A stretch of 64,000 nucleotides of DNA from Deroplatys truncata. Taxonomy: Eukaryota; Arthropoda; Insecta; Mantodea; Mantidae. This document shows positions 3,001 through 64,000 of this stretch, piece by piece. How positions within the stretch are numbered: the first letter of the stretch is position 1; each line of letters opens with the position of its first letter. The stretch covers positions 64,712,364 through 64,776,363 of the forward strand of contig CM060980.1 in assembly GCA_030765065.1 (NCBI GenBank), in the 5' to 3' direction. The notes under the pieces are model-generated. The model was given only the letters and a program-made list of their open reading frames with translations, was not told where the DNA came from and searched no databases. The position numbers and the translations under genes were made by a program.

Positions 3001-4140
3001 AAAACGTCAGTTTTGCTTTCCAGACTAGTAGCTAAATGGTTTTATGTTCGATCAAAAACCTACCAAATGAACTGAATACAAGAATACTGATAAGCGTAGC
3101 ATTATTTGTTTTTATCAGTGGAATAGTCTTACGAGTCTGGTTTAGCCGTATTGCTGCTGAGACAAGCCAATTCTGTGCACAATAAGTGCTGCCATACATC
3201 TGAAAGCAAAACAGACCGCCTGTCGTCAAGAAAAGTACGACAGTAATAACAACAGAAACATGGTACTTCTGCTAAATATATGTTACCTTCTATTCTTTAA
3301 GTGCTTTGAAATTATACAACCCTGCGGAGATGAAATCATATTCGAAAAAGGTAGCTAATATTAAATTTACAAGGTGCATTAAAATAATAAAATATCCTAC
3401 AGCATATTCATTACAGTAATCATGGATGGACATTGTGTTTACCTTAATTTTATGCTCATTAAATTTTGTCTACTTCGTCAATGTGAAGACTGAGAACGAA
3501 ACTAACTAAGGAGATGAGTACTAAGAAGATTGTTACACCAACGAAGTCCAAGTCTTATTTGTGATAAGAGGTCTACAAAAACTTGTTCCATGCTCTGAAT
3601 AATGCTTAAATACAGAAACTGTAGGAAGCGTTGTTTTAAGGTACATAGCATTCTGAAGTTGGCCTTAGTTAAAATGTTCATCTAAACAACATGTTAAAAT
3701 CTTATATCGCCACTTTTTGTTTCACACCTGCATATATACCTAAGGTAGTGGAGGTCTTGCATTCGAAAAAAAAACAATAATATCGGATTTAAAGGGAAAT
3801 TTTCTTTTCAGATCAACGACACCAGAAAGGAAGCAGTTTTAGAAAAGTTCATGTGTCCTGTCCTGTTTCTGTCTAGCATTACGCAAAAATGATAAGTTAG
3901 ACGAATAATAAACTTAAGTCGGGTACATTTTAAGAATATAACTTTACTTGCAAAAGTTTTTTTATATTTATTTTTCTAAAAAATGACTAGGGAAATTTTG
4001 AAGAATTATTGTATATATATGGAAATTATGAAGAAAAGGCATATCTTCATTGCTGAAAGATTATGTTCCGTTGTAGTAGAACATGTGCCATTTTCTGTGT
4101 CATTATCAAATTCTAAAACATACGTCGTTATTTGAATTTT
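1..4140. other. AT-rich intergenic DNA, no recognised gene
   Basis: No repeat family from elsewhere in the window was recognised here. Short frames on both strands (up to 119 codons at 487-846) have no recognisable domain. A GC-richer patch at about 480-900 and another at about 2,520-2,830 stand out from the AT-rich background and could be exon remnants or old mobile DNA, but nothing specific supports either reading. A short (AAAT)n tract lies near 1,980-2,000. Confidence 0.6.
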
Positions 4141-4989
4141 TACCTTCTCTGCTACGTAAAGTAAGTAGCGGAAGTATTACATTCTACCCAAAAATTCGAT
4201 ACCAAGATTTCACTGGAAATACATGCCCTGAATCCAAATAAATCATTTTGGAAACATATCCGTGTGTGTTTCTGTGAACAGCATAACTCATAAATTAAAA
4301 GACGGATAAATAGCCAACTTCGTATTTAGGTTCAGTACCTTTCAAAGATGCGACACAAAGCTTTTCAAGAAAATCCTTCCACCCCAAACCACCCTTTACA
4401 TGAATTTTTTTTTCAATTTTTTTTTTATTTTCTAAAAAATAGTGCAAACGATTTTTATTAAAATACCGTATATTGAACATATTTACATGTCAGATAAAAT
4501 GTATATCTTAGATAGGCTATGAAGGCTATTCCCAGAAGGAAGGAATTTTACATAATCTTGTGTAACTGGTAAACGTTAAGCGCTAGACGAAAGTACTCTA
4601 CAAAAAATGTAGATCTCTTTAAAACACATAATTTATTAAAAATAGGTTTTTCTTTGTGTAAGCCGTTTCTGAGATATCCCTTATTAAAGGTTCGAATTGT
4701 TGATTTCTTGCTGATTCTCTTAAAATCCTTTCAACATTCAATTGTTTTCCGGATTGCATGGGAACAGTATGGAATTTTAAGGTCAGCATATAGCGACCTG
4801 TACTTAAACATTTGACTGCGGCTGTTCTCTTATAATGTTATAATGAAATGTGTAATGTAGCTATTTCTGCTAAGATTTATTTGAATTTAAGTGTAGTAGG
4901 TAGAAAAATAAGCTTGAGTAAGAATAACCTGTGCACCCACTAATAAACGATAGAGGATAGAGAAAGTCATGTGAAGCATCACACCAGAT
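4141..4989 (-). repeat. R880 interspersed repeat, near-complete copy
   Basis: This is a reverse-orientation copy of the R880 family. Its 3' end faces left and begins with the complement of the shared terminal GAGAAAGTA sequence, followed by the conserved GGAATAC and CGGTGAAATCT-like blocks seen in the other copies. Its 5' end faces right at the sequence complementary to ATCTGGTGTGATGC, next to an oligo-T tract. The microsatellite segment is short here (GTGTGTTTCTGTGAAC on the + strand). It is visibly more diverged than the 22.8 and 28.9 kb copies, so probably an older insertion. Confidence 0.85.
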
Positions 4990-22795: not shown

Positions 22796-23670
22796 ATCTG
22801 ATGTGTTACACTCACATGACTTTCTCTACTCTTGTACAAACTATTTTTACAAACGCTTATTCTCCATCTACTTCATGTTAATCGAGATAAACATTTCCAG
22901 ACTCTATCTTATTGCTAATTTTCTTGTAGATGTAAGGGGAATATATATTTACAAGGGCAATATAGAAATACAGTAGCCTTTAAGCATCGACATATCTCTT
23001 AATAGCTGGTTGCTAGGTGCAGCACCATTCCCTTTCCCACAGATTAATACTCTTTGCATATCCAAGACAAAAAAATGAATAACGAATTCCCATTTGAGAA
23101 AATAAATATTGAAAAATTTAAGGGAATAACAAGCAATATCTCGAAAATGGTTCACTCAACAAAAAAATGTATATGACATAAATTGTGTATTTTAACGCGA
23201 TCTACATTTTTTGTGTAGTAAACTTTTGTCTATCTCTTATGGTTTACCAGTTATCCAAAAGTCGTTCACAATGAAGAATACTTATGGAGACATTCCCAGA
23301 AAATTCAATATATAGGTTTTATTTGTCATAAAAATATCTTAAACATATGATATTTTAATCAAAATCGTTAGAGCCATTTTTGAGAAAATTAAAATTTTCG
23401 AAAAATCTTGCATGTAATGGGTAATCTGGGGTGGGGGGATTTTCTTGAAAACCTTCGTGTCGCATCTCTGGAAGATACTGAACCTAAATGCCAAGTTTGG
23501 TGTTTATCCGACTGTTCGTTTCTGAGTTATGTTGTTCACAGACACACAGACACACACACGGACATGTTTCCATGGGGTCTGAAAACATGTATTTCCGGTG
23601 AAATCTCGGTATCGATTTTTTGGGTGGAATACAATACTTTCCCTACTTACTATACGTAGTAGAGAAAGTA
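22796..23670 (+). repeat. R880 interspersed repeat, near-complete copy
   Basis: It begins ATCTGATGTGTTACACTCAC next to an A-rich flank and ends GTAGTAGAGAAAGTA followed by AAAA. It shows every family hallmark: a 5' hairpin (ATGTG/CACAT), ACTTTCTCTAC near the start complementary to the last 11 bases, an internal CACACAGACACACAC tract about 140 bases from the 3' end, and a terminal hairpin. It is strongly similar to the 28.9 kb copy, so both are relatively young. Short frames of similar sequence recur in several copies, but only because the copies are alike; no coding signature is seen. Confidence 0.9.
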
Positions 23671-24474
23671 AAAATTAGGATACCATTTAAAATCTTCAAA
23701 TCAATGAAAATACTTGTGTCGATTACTTAACTGGCTCGGTTGTTTTTAAACGATAGATTAATTAATCCTGTTGTGTACGCGTCTCGTTGGTTTATTAGCT
23801 TGCACCAGATCGGTTAGAAAAAATTGTATTAAAGAGCTGTTGCAAGGCTGTACATGGTCTACTGTTGCATGCACTTTCTCTGCTGTCAGGATTATTACAC
23901 TCTATAACTTGCATTGACCTTTACTTTTCTGAAAATAGTAGCGTCTCATGTAATTCTACCACATAAAAATACACATAACATACCTAAAACATAATAAAGC
24001 AAATGAAGTGTATTCCGGTACAAGTGCGGTAAGTGCATCATTGGAGGACGAGGAAGGGTTTGAAAATACGAGACTAAGTCGAGTACTTTATATTTGCCAG
24101 ATTCACCAATGCACGTACTGCTTGTGTATTTTTTTATTAAAGTTTATTTAAGGTCGCTTTAACCATGTTGAACTATTTTTTGACGATAAAGAATAATAGA
24201 AATAGTACTTATAGCAAAATAAAATTAATTACTAACAACTGTTGAACATGGTGGTTCCGATTATCCTTGCCTGGTTACGACTTAAAAAAATTAATAACAG
24301 TAACTCATACTTATCTCATGCATGAATTAAATATAAAGTAAATATTTAAAAAATAAAAGCGTGGCAAAGAACCAGGTAAGATTTGTATGGTAAAATTAAA
24401 CCATCAAATATGATTATATTTCATGTCTGAAATACTATTTATATCAAAAGTAAGATGATTTAATATAGTTCATG
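23671..24474. other. AT-rich intergenic DNA
   Basis: Nothing recognisable on either strand. Confidence 0.6.
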
Positions 24475-28911: not shown

Positions 28912-29822
28912 ATCTGATGTCTTACACTCACATGACTTTCTCTACTCTTGTACAAACTATTTTTACAAACGCTTATTCTCCATCTACTTCATGTTAATCG
29001 AGATAAACATTTGCAGACTCTATCTTATTGCTAATTTTCTTGTAGATGTAAGGGGATAATATATTTAAAGGGCAATTTGGAAATACAGTAGCCTTTAAGC
29101 ACATACATATCTCTTAATAGCTCGTTGCTAGGTGCAGCACCACTCCCTTTGCCACAGATTAATACTCTTTGCATATCAAAGACAAAAAAATGAATAACGA
29201 ATTCCCATTTAAGAAAATAAGTATTGAAAAATATAAGAGAATAACAAGCAATATCTCGAAAATGGTTCACTCAACAAAAAAAATGTATATGACATGAATT
29301 GTGTATTTTAACGCGATCTATATTTTTTGTGTAATAAACTTTTCTCTATCTCTTATGGTTTACCGGTTATGCAAATGTCGTTCACAATGAAGAACACTTT
29401 TGGAGTCATTCCCAGAAAATTCAAGATATACGTTTTATTTGTCATGACAATATATTAAACCTGTGATATTTTAATCAAAATCGTTAGAGCCCTTTTTGAG
29501 AAAATTAAAATTTTCGAAAAATCTTCCATGTAAAGGGTATCCTGGGGTGGGGGGATTTTGTTGGAAACCTTCGTGTCGCATCCCTGGAAGATATTGAACC
29601 TAAATACCAAGTTTGGTGTTTATCCGACTGTTCGTTTCTGAGTTATGCTGTTCACAGACACACAGACACACACACAGACAGACACACACACGGATATGTT
29701 TCCAAAAATGCTTTTTTGGATTCAGGGGGTCTCAAAACATGTATTTCCGGTGAAATCTCGGTATCGAATTTTTGGGTGGAATACAATACTTCCCCTAATT
29801 ACTATACGTAGTAGAGAAAGTA
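28912..29822 (+). repeat. R880 interspersed repeat, near-complete copy
   Basis: It starts ATCTGATGTCTTACACTCAC after a run of nine A and ends GTAGTAGAGAAAGTA. Its internal microsatellite is expanded (CACAGACACACAGACACACA and onward), making it the longest copy at 911 bp. It is strongly similar to the copy at 22.8 kb throughout. Confidence 0.9.
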
Positions 29823-30035: not shown

Positions 30036-30078
30036 AATACAATACTTCCCCTACTTACTATACATAGTAGAGAAAGTA
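30036..30078 (+). repeat. Isolated R880 3' terminus (43 bp)
   Basis: The sequence matches the last 43 bases of R880 almost perfectly (AATACAATACTTCCCCTACT through AGAGAAAGTA), with none of the preceding 800 bp. It lies 213 bp downstream of a near-complete copy in the same orientation. Confidence 0.85.
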
Positions 30079-30796: not shown

Positions 30797-31653
30797 GTGG
30801 AAACGTGTTGCATTCACGCGACTTTCTCTATCCACTATCGTTAATTTTATATAGCTCCTACAAACTACTCTTACGAAAGCTCATTTTTCTGTTTACTCCT
30901 TATAAGCGAAGATAAACGTTTGCATAAATAGTTTAATTATAGACGTCGTTGAATGTACTAGGCGGGATAGAAGAAACCGAATCGAATTACATGTTTAAAA
31001 GCGACTGTCTATATGCTGGCCTTGAAATTCCACATGCTTTCCATGACATTGTGAGAAACATGCGAATAGGGAGCATCTGAAAAAATTTGTACTGAAAAAT
31101 GTAAACCAATATTAACGAATATCTCGGAAATGCTGATGCCACAGAAACGGATATTTGAAATAAATTATGGGTTTTAAATAGATCTACATTTTTATGCAGT
31201 AAGTTTTTGTCTACTTCTTATGGATTACACGTTGTGTAATATTACACAAAATTCCTGTGAACCTCACAGGCTATTCCAGAAAATTCAAGATTTACATATT
31301 ATTTTGTCATGTAAATATGTTAAGTGTGTGGTATTTAAATCAAAATGGTTAGAATCATTTTTTGAAAATAAAAAATACTAAAAAGAAAAAAAAAGGTTTG
31401 CATGTAAAGAGTAGTCAAGGGTGGAGGGATTTTCTTAAAAACCTTCGTGTCACATCTTTCAAAGATACTGAACTTAAATACCAAGTTTTCGTTTTTGAGC
31501 TATGCTGTTCACAGACACACACACGTGAACCTTTCTCAAAAAGTGCATTTTTTGCATTCGGAGGGCCTGTAAACATGTACTTCCGGTGAAATATCGGTAT
31601 AGCATTATTTGGTGGAATACAGTGCTCCTACTAGATACGTGATGGAGAAAGTA
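30797..31653 (+). repeat. R880 interspersed repeat, diverged near-complete copy
   Basis: The 5' end reads ACGTGTTGCATTCACGCGAC and the 3' end GATGGAGAAAGTA. The 5' hairpin stem is CGTG/CACG instead of ATGTG/CACAT, with both arms changed. The microsatellite is reduced to ACAGACACACACACG. It is clearly older than the 22.8 and 28.9 kb copies. Confidence 0.85.
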
Positions 31654-35282: not shown

Positions 35283-35981
35283 ATCTGATGTGTTACACTC
35301 ACCTGACTTTTTCTACTCTTGTACAAACTATTTTTACAAACGCTTATTCTCCATATGCTTCATGTTAATCCAGATGTTAAATCTTATTGCTAATTTTCTT
35401 GTAGGTGCAAGGGGAATTGGTAGTCTTTAAGCGATAGTCAAATCTTTTAACCGCTGGTTGCTATGTGGCGCATTCCATTCTCTTTGTATGTCCAGGACAT
35501 AAAAAAGTGAGATTATGAATTCCCATCTCAGAAAAAGTATAAGTATTGGAAAATTTAAGGGAATAACAAGCAATATCTCGAAAATTGTTCACTCAACAAA
35601 AAAACGTATATGACATAAATTGTGTATTTTAACGCGATCTACATTTTTTGTGTAGTAAAAGTTTGTCTATCTCTTATGGTTTACCAGTTATGCATCGGTC
35701 GTTCACAATGAAGATACTTTTGGAGACATTCCCAGAAAATTCGAGATATACATTACATTTGTCATGAAAATATCTTAAACATATGTTATTTTAATCAAAA
35801 TCGTTAGAGCCATTTTTGATAAAACTAAATTTTAGAAAAATGTTCCATGTAAAGGGTAACCTGGGGTGGGGAGTTTCTTGAAAACCTTCGTGTCGCATCT
35901 CTGGAAGATACTGAACCTAAATACTAAGCTTGGTGTTTATCCGACTGTTCCTTTCTGAGTTATGCTGTTCACAGACACACA

Positions 35982-36015
<34 letters not shown>

Positions 36016-36144
36016 CATGCTTCCAAAATGCTTTTTGGGGGATTCAGGGCGCCTCAATACATATATTTCCGGTGAAATCTTGGTATCAAATTTTTGGGTG
36101 GAATACATAACTTCCCCTACTTACTATATGTAGTAGAGAAAGTA
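35283..36144 (+). repeat. R880 younger copy inserted into an older one
   Basis: It starts ATCTGATGTGTTACACTCAC and ends GTAGTAGAGAAAGTA. Its internal (CA)n tract is long and uninterrupted (about 35,982-36,012). It interrupts the older R880 copy whose parts lie on either side. Confidence 0.9.
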
Positions 36145-36722
36145 AAAAGCATTAGTATTTGAAAATTCAAACCAATACCAAAAAACACCTTTGAAATAGT
36201 TAAAGCCATAACAATTTTTATTGAACATGAATTGTATCCTTCAACAAAATCCTTGTTTTCTTTGTAGTATGATTTTGTCTATATCCTAAAGTTTACGAGA
36301 CAGACAAAAATAATTTTGAATGAAAAAGACTTCACAGACCATTTCCAGAAAATTCAAGGTGTACATTTATTTGTCATACAAATATCTGAAGTATGTGGTA
36401 TTTTGATAAAAATAAATATTAAAGCCATTTGTGAGAAAATAAAGAATAACATCAAATTTCCATCCAAAGTATAGTTTGAGCTGGAGAATTAATCTTGAAA
36501 ATCTTCGTCACATTCTTCGAAGTTTGGTATTTAACCAACGTTTCGTATTTTAGTTACGCCGTTCATATACACACATATGCACACATACACACACCCACGG
36601 AGAGACTTTTTTCTAAAAATATTCTCTTTTTTTATTTAGGAGCGCTCGAAACACATTTACATTAAAATCTCAGCATCGAATGCGATAGATACTTCTCTTA
36701 CTTGCCTTAGGTAAGGAGAAGA
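36145..36722 (+). repeat. R880 old copy, right part
   Basis: It resumes the R880 mid-section with GTATTTGAAAATTCAAACCA and ends with ACTTCTCTTACTTGCC and AAGGAGAAGACA, a decayed version of the terminal hairpin. Much more diverged than the inserted copy. Confidence 0.7.
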
Positions 36723-42649: not shown

Positions 42650-43201
42650 TACTTTCTCTACCATCTTCCCAAGATAGTAGATAAGAGAAAGTATTGTATT
42701 CCAGCCAAATATTCGATATCGAGATTTCACTGGAAATTACGTTATGAGGCCCCCTGAAAAAAGTATTTAGAAAAACGTTAATGTGTGTGGGGGGGTTATT
42801 TAGTTTCAGCATCTTCCAAAGATGTGACGGATTCAAGAAAGTCCCCCACCTTAAACTAGCCTTTACACTGAAGATTTTTCGAAATTTTGGATTTTCTCAA
42901 AATGGCCCTATCGATTTTGATTAAAATACCATATATTTAAGATATTTACATGACAAGTAATATAAATTTTCTCGAAATAGCCTCTGAAGCTTCATCATTT
43001 GGAAGAAATTTTATGTAACTCGTTAACCATAAGGGCTAGAGAAAAACGTACTACCAAAAATGTAGTTCAAACACACTATTTACTTCAAATAACTTACATA
43101 ATATTAGCCATTTCCAAGATATGAGGGTGTAGTTTCAAAATGAGTATTTTCTATACTAATTAGTTTCGAGAAAAACAAGAAAAACATATTCAGAGAAAAT
43201 A
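42650..43201 (-). repeat. R880 3' portion, cut by a DNA transposon
   Basis: It begins with TACTTTCTCTACC, the complement of the R880 3' end, and follows the element in reverse up to a TTTCGAGAAAAAC stretch near 43,180. The terminal hairpin is more complete here than in other copies: ACTTTCTCTACC and its partner GATAAGAGAAAGT pair with only small bulges. The copy stops at the TA where the mariner-type element begins. R880 sequence was not recognised immediately beyond that element. Confidence 0.75.
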
Positions 43202-44659
43202 AAGAGTGGTCCCTCAGCGCTCTGGCCGGGAATTGCACGGCAGACTTGTGCGACACGTCTGAATGAACTCAAGGTCACGGGCTCTTCCACTTATCGGACA
43301 TGTGGCAGCGGGTTTCAGTCAGTTGTTATTGCTTCTTGTGTATATACGCGAGACGCGTGTGTATTTGTGTGCGATTGAATTATCGAATCATTACAACCCA
43401 GAAATGGCACTCAAATTTTCGCTTGAACAAAGACTTTTTATGTATGACACGTATGTGAAAACCGACTCATGTAGACAGGTTATAGGCAATTTCACGATAA
43501 ATTTCCTGTTGTTCCAGTTCCGAGTAGAGAAACAGAAATATAGTGAATAAAGTGAAGAGAACGGGATCATTTAGTGTTGTAAGTTGTAAAAAGAAACGAA
43601 GGGCTCTAACGGAAGAAAAATTTGATGAAATTGGCGAAGCATATGAACGGTCTCCGAATAAATCTTTATGACGTGTAGCACAACAAGTCAGTGTTTCAAA
43701 AACCTGAGTACATAGGTCTCATAAACTGTTGAAATTAAAACCATACAGAGACTATTGTCCATCAATTACGACCACGTGATGATGAAGCCCGCGTAAAGTT
43801 CTGTAACTGGATGTTACAATATATTGTTGGCGGTACTGTTGACCCACATCTAATAATTTTTTCAGATGAGGCATGGTTTCATTTGACTGGCCGTGTTGCT
43901 TCTCAAAACAGTAGGTATTGGTGTACTGAAAATCCGAATTTAATTCACGAGGTTTCTTTACAGGAAGAAAAACATGGTGTATGGTGTGCTGTAACAGCAG
44001 AACGGATAATAGGTCCCATATTTTACAACGATACCGTAAATTACGATAGTTCCGCAAAAATATTCTCGCGCCATTTTTGCAATGTTGACAGATGAGAGGG
44101 AATGTGGCTATTTTCAACAACATTCTGCCACAGCTCATACTACGGAGGCTTCCTTGGAAGACATCAAGAATATTTTTGATGACAGAATAATCATTAAAAG
44201 TTTATGGCCGGCACGATCGCCGGATCTTACTGTGGGAACTCTCAAAAATAGAGTCTATAGGAATATTCCTCGCACCATAGACGATCTTAAAAACAATATA
44301 AGAACAGAAATTAGGGAAATTACGCAACAAGAACTTATGCGTGTGAATGGTAATTTCATCAGAAGGTGCCAAGAATGTTTATCTGCCGAAAGACACCACT
44401 TTCAACACCGACTGTGAAAAAGGTTAGTACTGATAAAATAAAAAGTAATTATGTTTGTTCAATAGGTAATCAATATATCGTAATAATCATCATAAAATCA
44501 GTAATAACATGGTATCAGTATCAATAATGAGAATAATAAACAGATACACTGAATATAGCGCGCGGAACACGCATCGCGACTACTGGCCAGATAACTGAGG
44601 GATCGCGCGCGGAACACGCATCGCGACTGCCGGCCACATGACTGAGGGACCACTTTTTA
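43200..44659 (+). mobile_element. IS630/Tc1/mariner-type DNA transposon with TA target duplication
   Basis: TA at 43,200-43,201 and 44,658-44,659 brackets 1,456 bp. The left end is AAGAGTGGTCCCTCAG and the right end in reverse complement is AAAAGTGGTCCCTCAG, with 15 of 16 bases shared; both continue into a CTGGCCGG- or GGCCGGCA-type block. Near the right end a unit of about 50 bp (GCGCGCGGAACACGCATCGC and onward) is present twice in tandem. It encodes a broken transposase. It sits next to an R880 copy and so arrived after it. Confidence 0.85.
43404..44417 (+). pseudogene. Transposase relic, DUF4817-type helix-turn-helix plus DDE domain
   Basis: The protein would bind the ends of its element and cut and join DNA. 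It starts MALKFSLEQRLFMYDTYVKT, the N-terminal helix-turn-helix start of a transposase family common in insects, followed in another frame by ALTEEKFDEIGEAYERSPNK. The catalytic part has FSDEAWFHLTGRVASQNSRY (first Asp), HGVWCAVTAERIIGPIFYND, then CGYFQQHSATAHTT, where the second catalytic Asp is replaced by His, and WPARSPDLT. The usual CDFFLWG segment after SPDLTP, which carries the third acidic residue, is deleted. It ends FIRRCQECLSAERHHFQHRL. Several frame changes and a stop in the N-terminal third (SPNKSL then TGA) add to the damage. It cannot be active. Confidence 0.85.
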
Positions 44660-46440: not shown

Positions 46441-47099
46441 TCCATAGTAAGCAGCCGACACTGAAATGCCTGGTGCGATTTTCCTCTATGCTGACGCTGC
46501 GGGTATAATGGAAGAGCCACCGGTCTGTATTTGGAAATTAATTATTATGCATAATAAAAATGTTCCATTTCCACATTTCTGTCATATAGATTTAGTAAAA
46601 TTTAATATTATCTCCTTGTTATCCTGATTAGGTGCAGTTCAAAGTATAAAAATTACCATTCAGCTTACCGTTCTCTCTTCTCTATTTGTCTCTTCGAGTT
46701 TTCTGAATGTCTTACCTCCTCCTTCCACGTCCAGGTGGAGGAGGAATAATACATCTGTCCATTTGGCTTGAAATTATTACTTAAATAACTACAATAATAA
46801 TGATCTACAAGTGCAGAATTTGATATGTTTTGCACATGATGCAATAATCTCGCAAATTCTTATTAATGTCGTTTTTCCTTTCTGCTTCCTGATTGGCTGA
46901 ACGGAAATCACGCGTTCTGAAATCAAGAAGAGCGCCCTTTGATACTAATACGCTGTTTCCACATGATTTTTATGTGGGAAAGATCTCAATATACTATTCA
47001 TTGTCATATTTTGACGAAACATAACCTCTCCAACTTTCTATTAATATCAATACTTTGAGGAAAAATGGAAAAGACTCGTTTTGAAACTAGCCCCATATA
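46441..47099. other. Intergenic DNA, no recognised gene
   Basis: Nothing recognisable; pyrimidine-rich near 46,670-46,740. Confidence 0.55.
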
Positions 47100-47418
47100 T
47101 ACATTATTATTGGTTTGAATTGTTCAATATGCTGTCTTTTTTAAGTGCTGTCATTATTCAGTTTTTTCGCAAGTCATGGAAAGAGTGTGGATTTCTTAGG
47201 CCAGCATAAAGAGACCTGGTTATGAAACATCTAACTATTGATTCAGTTTCCTCGGTCTCCTTTGTACATTCCACGAATTGTGTAATAAAACTATTTCTGG
47301 AAAGGTATATCTCAATTAACATGCAGTAGACAGGAAAACAGGCTTTTGTAAGGAGAGTTTGTAGAAGTTATATAAAATAAACGATTGTTGGTAGAGAAAG
47401 TAGCGTGAATTTAACCAA
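47100..47418 (-). repeat. R880 5' portion, old copy
   Basis: In reverse orientation it matches the R880 5' section: TTATTCAG..TTTTCGCAAGTCATGG, AGAGTGTGGATTTCTTAGGC and CTCAATTAACATGCAGTAGA, then the 5' TAGAGAAAGTAGCGTGAA end. It overlaps in content with the copy at 42.65 kb, so it is a separate truncated copy and not the other half of that one. Confidence 0.65.

Positions 47419-47739: not shown

Positions 47740-47742
<3 letters not shown>

Positions 47743-47777
<35 letters not shown>
47743..47777 (+). repeat. (CA)n microsatellite
   Basis: About 17 uninterrupted CA units. No R880 sequence is recognisable around it. Confidence 0.98.
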
Positions 47778-58584: not shown

Positions 58585-59465
58585 ATCGGATGTGTTACGT
58601 TCCGTGACTTTCTATACCTACTACTGTTTATTTTTATATGACTCCACAAGCAAAGCTTATTTTTCTATCTACATCATGTTGATTGAAATGAATCTTTGCA
58701 GAAATGGTTTCATTACACGTTTCGTTGGAGAAACTAGCGAGATAGAGGAAAAACCGAAGCGATAGTCAAATTTTAAGAGATAGACGTTATTTGTTGGTCT
58801 AGAAATATCACACTCCGTCCATGACATCGCGCGAAACAAGTGAATAATGATAGTACCTGTAAAAAATGATAAAATTCAAGTCAAGTATAACGTATATCCC
58901 GGAAATGGCTAATACTATAAAAGTTATATGAAATAAATTGTGTAGTTTAAAAACATGTACATTGTTAGTGTAGTACTTTTTTCCTTTCTCTTGTGGTTTA
59001 CAAATTGTTCAAAATTATACAATATTCATTCCGAATAAAGGGAGTTCTCAGGCTATTTCCAAAACAATTAAGGTATACATTTTGTTTGGCATGTAAATAT
59101 ATTAAATATATGGGATTTTAATAAAAATAGTTAGAGCTATATCTAACAAAATCGAAAATTTTGAAAAATCTTCCATGTAAAAAATAGTTTGGAATGGGAA
59201 AATTTTCTTGAAAATCTTCGTGTCGCTTCTTTGGAAGATCAACAGCCTAAATACTAAGTTTGGTCTTTATTTGACATTCTGTTTTTGCGATATGCTGTTC
59301 ACGGAAAACACACACACAACATTCCCACATGGATATTTTCTAAAAATGCCTTTTTAGAATTCAGGAGGCTTCCAAGCATGTATTTCTGCTGAAATCTCGA
59401 CATCTAATTTTTGGGTGGAATACAGTACTTCCTCTACTTACTGTAAGTACATAGTAGATAAAGTA
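58585..59465 (+). repeat. R880 interspersed repeat, near-complete copy
   Basis: It begins ATCGGATGTGTTACGTTCCG and ends GTAGATAAAGTA followed by AAAA. The microsatellite is short (ACACACACAACATTCCCACA). Moderately diverged. The 5' hairpin is not well preserved in this copy. Confidence 0.85.
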
Positions 59466-59917: not shown

Positions 59918-60536
59918 ATTGTTAGGAAATAAGTTTACACGACCTCACTGAAACTGACAATAGGAGCGGGTAACAATGAGCGAGAGGGTGAGTTGTTTAT
60001 TACTTAGAAGAGACAAGCAAATGACGTCAGATTAGCGCGCTTTTCTTTAGAAATGGAGGGAATATCTTCCCTAGAGCATATGTGTTCGTAATTTTGATTG
60101 GATATAAAAATAGACGCTAATGTTGGCGCGTTTTATTAACCAATAGCAGCTCGATTATAATCTTTAGGCATATCGGGGTGAGGGAGTATAAATTCTAAAG
60201 CCGGAGACGGGTAATGCGCAGTTCTACAGAATAATTCACAAGGCAAACGTCGCGCAGTTCTACATAATATTCACGCGTTACAGGTCGCACAGTTCAACAG
60301 AATCATCCACGGATTACACGTCGCGCAATTCTACAGAATCTCTCGCGTCGTAAAGCTAGTTACAAAAAATGTGAAATACTTGAATTAATAATATGCGGCA
60401 AATAAGTGATTATAGTTACATTCGAAAATACAACAGTCAGGCGTGTATCAAGAGTAAATATGTGAAATTAATAATGTGTGACCACAATAAAAGTGTAAAA
60501 ACAAATTCTTTTATCAGTGTTATTTTTTAGTAACAA
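59918..60536 (+). promoter_or_regulatory. Compact promoter-like unit, possible solo LTR
   Basis: In order it holds a perfect CRE TGACGTCA (60,022-60,029), CCAAT (60,140-60,144), TATAAAT (60,187-60,193), a four-unit tandem repeat and AATAAA (60,486-60,491) followed by a T-rich tract. A promoter and a poly(A) signal about 300 bp apart are what one expects of a long terminal repeat, and the segment can be framed as TGTTAGG...AGTAACA. No flanking duplication or internal region was found, so a solo LTR fossil of unknown family is only one reading; a small host transcription unit is the other. Confidence 0.45.
60216..60356 (+). repeat. Four-unit tandem repeat, 35-36 bp period
   Basis: Units start at 60,216, 60,252, 60,287 and 60,323, each opening with GCGCAGTTCTACAGAAT or a close variant; the first three end in a GTC-type junction. 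They lie just downstream of the TATA-like box. Confidence 0.85.
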
Positions 60537-63518: not shown

Positions 63519-64000
63519 TACTTTCTCTACTACGTATAGTAAGTAGGGGAAGTATTGTATTCCACCCAAAAATTCAATACCGAGATTTCACCGGAAATAT
63601 ATGTTTTGAGGCCCCCTGAATCCAAAAAAAAGCAATTTTAGAAACATGTCCGTGTGTGTGTCTGTGTGTCTGTCTGTGAACAGCATAACTCAGAAGCGAA
63701 CAGTCGGATAAACACCAAACTTGGTATTTAGGTTCAGTATCTTCCAGAGATGCGACACGAAGGTTTTCAAGAAAATCTCCCCACCCCAGATTACTCTTTA
63801 CATGGAACATTTTTCGAAAATTTTAATTTTCTCAAAAATGGCTATAACGATTTTGATTAAAATATCATATATTTAAGATACTTTTATGACAAATGAAAAT
63901 GTATATCTCGAATTTTCTGGGAATGTCTCCAAAGGTATTCTTCATTGTGAACGACTTTTGCATAACTGGTAAACCATAAGAGATAGACAAAATGTTACTA
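63519..64000 (-). repeat. R880 interspersed repeat, cut by window end
   Basis: It starts TACTTTCTCTACTACGTATA, the complement of the R880 3' terminus, and runs through the microsatellite (GTGTGTGTCTGTGTGTCTGT) and the conserved mid-section to the last base of the window. It is close to the 22.8 and 28.9 kb copies, so relatively young. Confidence 0.9.

Follow-up and report, generated by a model that had tools for sequence, protein, structure and literature searches.

The window, a 64,000-nt stretch of the Deroplatys truncata genome, contains many copies of an interspersed repeat, R880, whose reference copy is listed first in Table 1 (positions within it are given as q1–875). A first-pass annotation had described R880 as a repeat with at least ten recognisable copies or parts in both orientations, and its coordinates for the reference copy hold to within the flanking A-runs. 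Our blastn comparison agrees, returning 17 rows for R880 against the window, three of them full length, and many parts in both orientations. In a search with six in-window seeds, R880 and its relatives together occupy 7,243 of the 64,000 nt, on both strands and in 15 merged stretches, of which one (47742–47777) is a CA run only. We found no reading frame of at least 120 aa in the reference copy, and neither Rfam against the window nor Pfam against six window frames gave a match. Separately from R880, the window holds a 125-aa frame (44040–44417) that by eye resembles a mariner-type transposase, with no match in Pfam, a tandem repeat of a 36-nt unit in 3.5 copies (60216–60339) and a doubled 47-nt unit (44558–44649). 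The solitary terminal hairpin in Table 1 lies about 210 nt from a full R880 copy.

Table 1. Copies of R880 in the window and features of the reference copy
Feature	Position	Strand	Basis or remark
R880, full non-autonomous copy (very probable HINE)	22796..23670	-	strand is the coding direction of the autonomous partner
Second full R880 copy	28912..29822	-	blastn, 90%
Third full R880 copy, subtype here named v352	35283..36144	-	blastn, 80%
Older R880 copy	4139..4967	+	blastn, multi-seed search
Older R880 copy	30805..31653	-	blastn, multi-seed search
Old R880 relative adjoining the third copy	36156..36681	-	blastn, multi-seed search
Old R880 copy, split in two	42674..43122	+	blastn, multi-seed search
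Old R880 fragment with part of the coding 3' region	47097..47401	+	blastn, multi-seed search
Older R880 relative, near full length	58585..59465	-	blastn, multi-seed search
R880 copy, 89% identical, interrupted by the window end	63519..64000	+	blastn, multi-seed search
Solitary 43-nt 5' terminal hairpin, exact intact terminus	30036..30078	-	blastn
5' terminal hairpin (coding sense), starts T-ACTTTCTCTACTACG	23635..23670	-	folding
5' member of the asymmetric terminal inverted repeat, at 1 nt from the 5' terminus	23658..23669	-	all 12 nt complementary to 22819-22830
3' member of the asymmetric inverted repeat, at 23 nt from the 3' terminus	22819..22830	-	sequence comparison
3' terminal stem-loop CATGTG...CACATCAGAT, 5-bp stem	22796..22818	-	folding
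Internal CA microsatellite, varies among copies	23538..23560	.	sequence inspection and repeats
A7 run, query position ~276; recurrent self-insertion site in other family copies	23069..23075	.	
AAAA target flank (coding sense: TTTT just before the 5' end)	23671..23674	.	

The ends of R880 are named here in the coding sense of the autonomous elements described below, two of which we call B1 and B2. This inverts the polarity of the first-pass annotation, as ATCTGATG, which it had placed at the 5' end, is the 3' end. Its observation that a motif near one end is the exact complement of the opposite terminus was accurate, the 12-nt inverted repeat being perfect. R880, B1 and B2 all begin with T-ACTTTCTCTAC within the predicted hairpin, and in all three GTAGAGAAAGT lies 23 nt before the 3' end. 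Hairpins had been proposed at both ends: the one over the last 36 nt at the GAGAAAGTA end was predicted in all five elements folded, with one base of the stem differing from R880 in each of B1 and B2, while the 5-bp stem ATGTG/CACAT at the ATCTGATG end was predicted in three of the five (R880, B1 and B2). This weak 3' stem is absent from the window copies at 28912 and 35283, both of which are altered there. The CA tract near the GAGAAAGTA end is also present, about 110–130 nt from it. A 5' repeat a few nucleotides from the 5' end and a 3' repeat before a 3' stem-loop make up the end plan of HINEs. R880 ends in T-ACTTTC and CAGAT(TTT) rather than in the 5' TC and 3' CTRR of canonical Helitrons, the absence of CTRR having been recognised in the first reading, and it shows no symmetric terminal inverted repeats with a fixed-length duplication of the kind that marks TIR transposons and MITEs.

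A search of the 4.29-Gb host genome with R880 yielded 5,164 first-look candidates, and all of the best 40, which were scored, matched; E was 0 in 40 of the 46 rows, one for each scored candidate. R880-family-like bases numbered 883 of 10,000 in random genome pieces (3 of 20 pieces) and zero in letter-shuffled pieces. With E = 0 rows and no coverage of shuffled sequence, R880 matches exceed chance. Among 20 further loci (class A, below) the corresponding figure was 914 of 69,411, from two loci. Because the random-piece and class A figures conflict, and each comes from a small or biased sample, we claim no genome share for the family.

The first-pass annotation had proposed looking in the same genome for a Rep/helicase element with the R880 termini, and we found one. 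The Helitron Rep domain profile PF14214 gave 152 matches in this genome, among which we distinguish two sets, class A (L031–L050) and class B. In the class B element B1 (L061+L062, 1338–11034), the left end corresponds to R880 q151–875 at 86% identity and the right end to q1–34 (32/34), both inverted; B2 (L063+L064) has the same arrangement, with its left end at 89%. R880 thus shares 725 nt with these elements at 86–89% and the opposite terminal 34 nt at 32/34, and in coding sense both start with the reverse complement of q151–875 and finish with that of q1–34.

The partner element is about 9.7 kb long, with an open frame of 2,182 aa in B1 and 2,324 aa in B2 that is predicted to combine Rep and a PIF1 helicase in one protein (Helitron_like_N, PF14214, 9.5e-28; PIF1, PF05970, 1.8e-29, both in B1). 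In B1 the predicted domains are a herpes-tegument-protease-like stretch (1.1e-8), DUF6570, Helitron_like_N and PIF1. The C-terminus of B2 matches the endonuclease domain Exo_endo_phos_2 (PF14529, 1.8e-6) at 28.3 bits, just above the Pfam cut-off of 27.4; the domain has an internal stop in B1 and none in B2, and a PDB search with it gave a single match, of unrelated name, at E 0.37. NCBIfam returned no match for the partner protein, and a scan of viral contigs found no relatives. The protease-like match (Herpes_teg_N, residues 67–212, at the frame start of L061:3253–9798 and also in L063) is a single Pfam match; after it come tandem repeats, also coding, about 63 nt in period, the number of which may explain differences in copy length. 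OTU proteases appear as additional frames in the Helentrons of PMC4067079; here the protease-like part is fused.

Rep motif 2 of the partner reads VEFQMRGSPHEH, with S between G and P, at all 12 class B loci read. These are 11 distinct elements, since L058 and L061 denote one place. Across about 3.6 kb, eleven class B loci are mutually 96.5–99.8% identical, four of the 11 having stops in the compared frame. Class B matches lie in long open frames. Counted by hand and irrespective of class, the listed Rep matches fall in open frames of at least 1,000 aa in 30 cases and of at least 2,000 aa in 18. When we searched with the 3' end alone (the last 937 nt of B2), 20 of the 40 scored copies, B2 included, print 100% identical to B2. 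With near-identical copies and long open frames, the autonomous copies look recently active. Class A has the highest Rep scores and is mostly broken. Its Rep motif is RGLPH, with the L of Helitrons, in 10 of the 20 loci, which are all those where the motif was found, and L033 matches Helraiser at 8.1e-67. Helraiser-type canonical Helitrons resemble the partner in joining Rep to a PIF1 helicase; they differ in having L where the partner has S, and in this genome they form this separate set. We rejected a canonical Helitron identity for R880, as ends and Rep motif both disagree with it.

We determined the insertion preference of R880 from its flanks. Among right ends in the collected sequence, A follows directly in 66 of 66 and the full AAAA in 49 of 66, which places R880 insertions at T-runs, as TTTT|T, and hence in T-rich DNA. 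In 35 full copies, seven have a flank other than AAAA and none of the seven repeats that flank on the opposite side, with the qualification that these copies are not young, so that flanks may have mutated, and that two of them (L012 and L019) deviate from AAAA at the fourth base only. Both flanks were also fetched for 17 autonomous copies: in the collected sequence, an uninterrupted counterpart spans the join in 13, at 90% identity or more in 10, and in those 10 the filled sites hold 2 to 7 extra T's relative to the counterpart (exactly 4 in five). The extra T's fit the T's of the 3' end, which are reported to belong to the element in other Helentrons (PMC4067079). On their own they are also compatible with a TTTT duplication, which within a T-run is indistinguishable from the element's own T's; the seven informative copies speak against it.

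Taken together, these observations indicate that R880 is very probably a HINE, in other words a non-autonomous element derived by deletion from a Helentron that resides in the same genome. The assignment follows from a partner that carries both R880 ends, encodes Rep, helicase and endonuclease, and bears the Helentron Rep signature. In PMC4067079, Helentrons are defined by an endonuclease fused to Rep/helicase, with S in Rep motif 2 as diagnostic, and the predicted C-terminal endonuclease makes the partner a Helentron in that usage. The first-pass reading of R880 as HINE-like and non-autonomous gains support from the partner, its Rep signature and its endonuclease. That reading had named two observations that would speak against it, fixed-length target duplications and a TIR-type transposase partner: we saw neither, bearing in mind that a TTTT duplication in a T-run would be invisible. 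R880 and its relatives make up about a tenth of the window, and with the autonomous partner found we regard their class as settled at this level of probability.

R880 is non-coding and has its ends in common with the Helentron, as expected of a HINE, while q35–150 is found in neither B1 nor B2 and does not derive from them. The inverted repeat of at least 11 bp by which a family is recognised (ACTTTCTCTAC / GTAGAGAAAGT) is identical in R880, B1 and B2. Over the last 60 bp, on which subfamilies are judged, R880 agrees with B1 at 39/60 and with B2 at 39/60, outside the subfamily rule. Under the published rules, these values place R880 in one family with the autonomous copies examined but in a different subfamily. 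The 39/60 agreement and the absence of q35–150 from B1 and B2 suggest that the closest partner of R880 may be another subfamily.

This last point bears on the idea that R880 is mobilised by an endonuclease-free Helitron2 and not by a Helentron proper, since its nearest partner is not fixed to subfamily. The end plan is the same: Helitron2 elements (PMC3627910) have a 5' repeat 0–2 nt from the end within a hairpin and a 3' repeat 20–30 nt from the end followed by a stem-loop. One Helitron2 family inserts, without duplication, where TTTT is followed by T or C (same source), much as R880 inserts after TTTT, mostly without duplication. We nonetheless consider this origin improbable, because the partner found adds a C-terminal endonuclease and its Rep residues are of the Helentron type. 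The perfect 12-nt inverted repeat near both ends might recall a MITE-like derivative of a cut-and-paste DNA transposon, a very improbable reading given that the repeat is asymmetric (1 nt versus 23 nt from the ends), that duplication is absent in the seven testable of 35 full copies, and that the coding element with R880 ends encodes Rep and a helicase. A SINE-like retroelement inserted into A-runs by target-primed reverse transcription would account for A-rich flanks on both sides, yet its probability is close to nil: both ends are precise, the right end is hairpinned, the A-run after it is exactly four in 38 of 66, L027 and L030 have ATAA and lack an A tail, and the ends are common to a Rep/helicase element. 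We rejected the MITE and SINE readings on account of the Rep/helicase partner and the asymmetric ends.

HINE/DINE-1 elements (PMC4067079) resemble R880 in many respects: R880 is likewise non-coding and present in many copies, has near-terminal inverted repeats, a 3' stem-loop and an internal microsatellite, inserts in T-rich DNA without detectable target change, and has a Helentron partner with the same ends. It differs from the mite HINEs of that paper in the position of the 3' repeat, 23 nt from the end as against 38–60 nt, and from HINE/DINE-1 elements as portrayed there in that the R880 family inserts repeatedly into itself at one internal A-run. In the PMC literature that we searched we noticed no account of the R880 family, none of a Helentron lineage whose 5' ends are mostly doubled (see below), and nothing under Helentron combined with stick insect.

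By analogy with the family, the partner protein would nick the 5' end between TTTT and T, and its helicase would peel one strand away. The strand would then terminate at the first 3' end met, that is, at the inverted repeat with its stem-loop, and the copy would insert at another T-run. R880 would contribute the ends only and borrow the protein of the partner. Its A7 run and other T-runs would make R880 a frequent target of its own family, giving rise to nests, tandems and composites.

All three arrangements occur in the collected loci. L025 is an R880 nested in an R880 at the A7 run near q276, as are L074 and L075, and in L066 and L069 the host of the nest is the v352 subtype. Head-to-tail neighbours are seen at L005, L009, L028 and L029. 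A piece of about 600 nt, q276–875, forms head-to-tail arrays at L065, L073 and L074, a possible beginning of satellite DNA. We had considered that all joins of q875 to q276 (875|276) are composites, which longer sequence ruled out by revealing L066, L069, L074 and L075 as nests. Nests and same-site insertions mimic such joins; we therefore excluded one-sided joins, including the opposite-kind L070 and L015, as evidence of direction. The junction scan covered joins at the q276 A-run; at least one join lies elsewhere, that of L067 at q317, also beside AAAA.

The autonomous elements themselves frequently carry two 5' ends. We queried the genome with the 5' region of B2, itself composite, and scored the best 40 of 18,167 candidates. 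Of the scored copies, 32 extend into the autonomous part: 19 of these, B2 included, have two 5' ends and one 3' end and seven have a single 5' end (start 628–665), a composite share that applies to the best-scored copies of a composite query. The remainder of the 40 comprise four that start at 310–347, including C12, which further sequence showed to be complete, two that start further inside, and eight that stop short of the autonomous part. A private form of the join is common to B2, C4 and C12. The 3'-end search offers a fairer sample, with the best 40 of 348 candidates scored. Its 20 copies at 100% over 937 nt comprise 16 full composites, two that start at 310, one that starts further inside and one absent from the 5'-query list; a single 5' end occurs in none. 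Three of the seven copies with one 5' end were among the scored copies of this search, at 95–96%, and the other four were not among them; six of its 99% copies are absent from the 5'-query list and are left out of the 5'-end counts.

To define the unit that moves, we analyzed the flanks of these copies. The same exact 5' terminus was found in all 20 copies with a fetched 5' flank (17 composite, three single-end). Both flanks were available for 16 composites, eight of which are inserted into a host R880 or v352 at its q276 run, and the flanks of these eight are contiguous in uninterrupted copies. A reading of the q277+ flank as part of the composite was rejected, as in these eight it belongs to the host repeat. 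L078 is likewise inserted, at another T-run of R880; L077 lies in the CA region of R880 and L080 directly follows the 3' end of another copy. The 150 nt that precede the 5' end have no R880 similarity in L084, L086, L088 and L092 and some in L087 and L090. Flanks at such varied targets indicate that the unit moved extends from the outer 5' end through the 3' end, as would be predicted for copying that begins at the outermost 5' end and halts at whichever 3' end comes first.

For Fusarium, it has been proposed (PMC5148889) that such forms arise when an element inserts into a copy of itself and copying is afterwards initiated at the outer 5' end and terminated at the first 3' end; the composite observations fit that proposal. 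The composite FoHelis described there likewise have two 5' ends and one 3' end; the 5' piece duplicated in them is typically shorter than 200 bp, compared with about 600 bp here, in the 19 of 32 scored copies. We give an even chance to the reading that the main recent autonomous form is a composite of two complete 5' ends and one 3' end, born by self-insertion at the A-run and now moving as a unit. The doubled 5' end might instead be a tandem duplication by unequal crossing-over, later mobilised, and no trace of self-insertion. Crossing-over could lengthen existing q276–875 arrays such as L065, L073 and L074, but the 875|276 join lies at the very A-run where full nests occur (L025, L074 and L075), and we consider this origin of the doubled end unlikely. 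If the self-insertion reading is true, the composites provide natural evidence for copying from the outermost 5' end, past the second 5' end, to the first 3' end, and show a Helentron end on its way to becoming a 600-bp tandem array. In this sense the composite copies test, in a natural setting, where the copying of a strand begins and ends.
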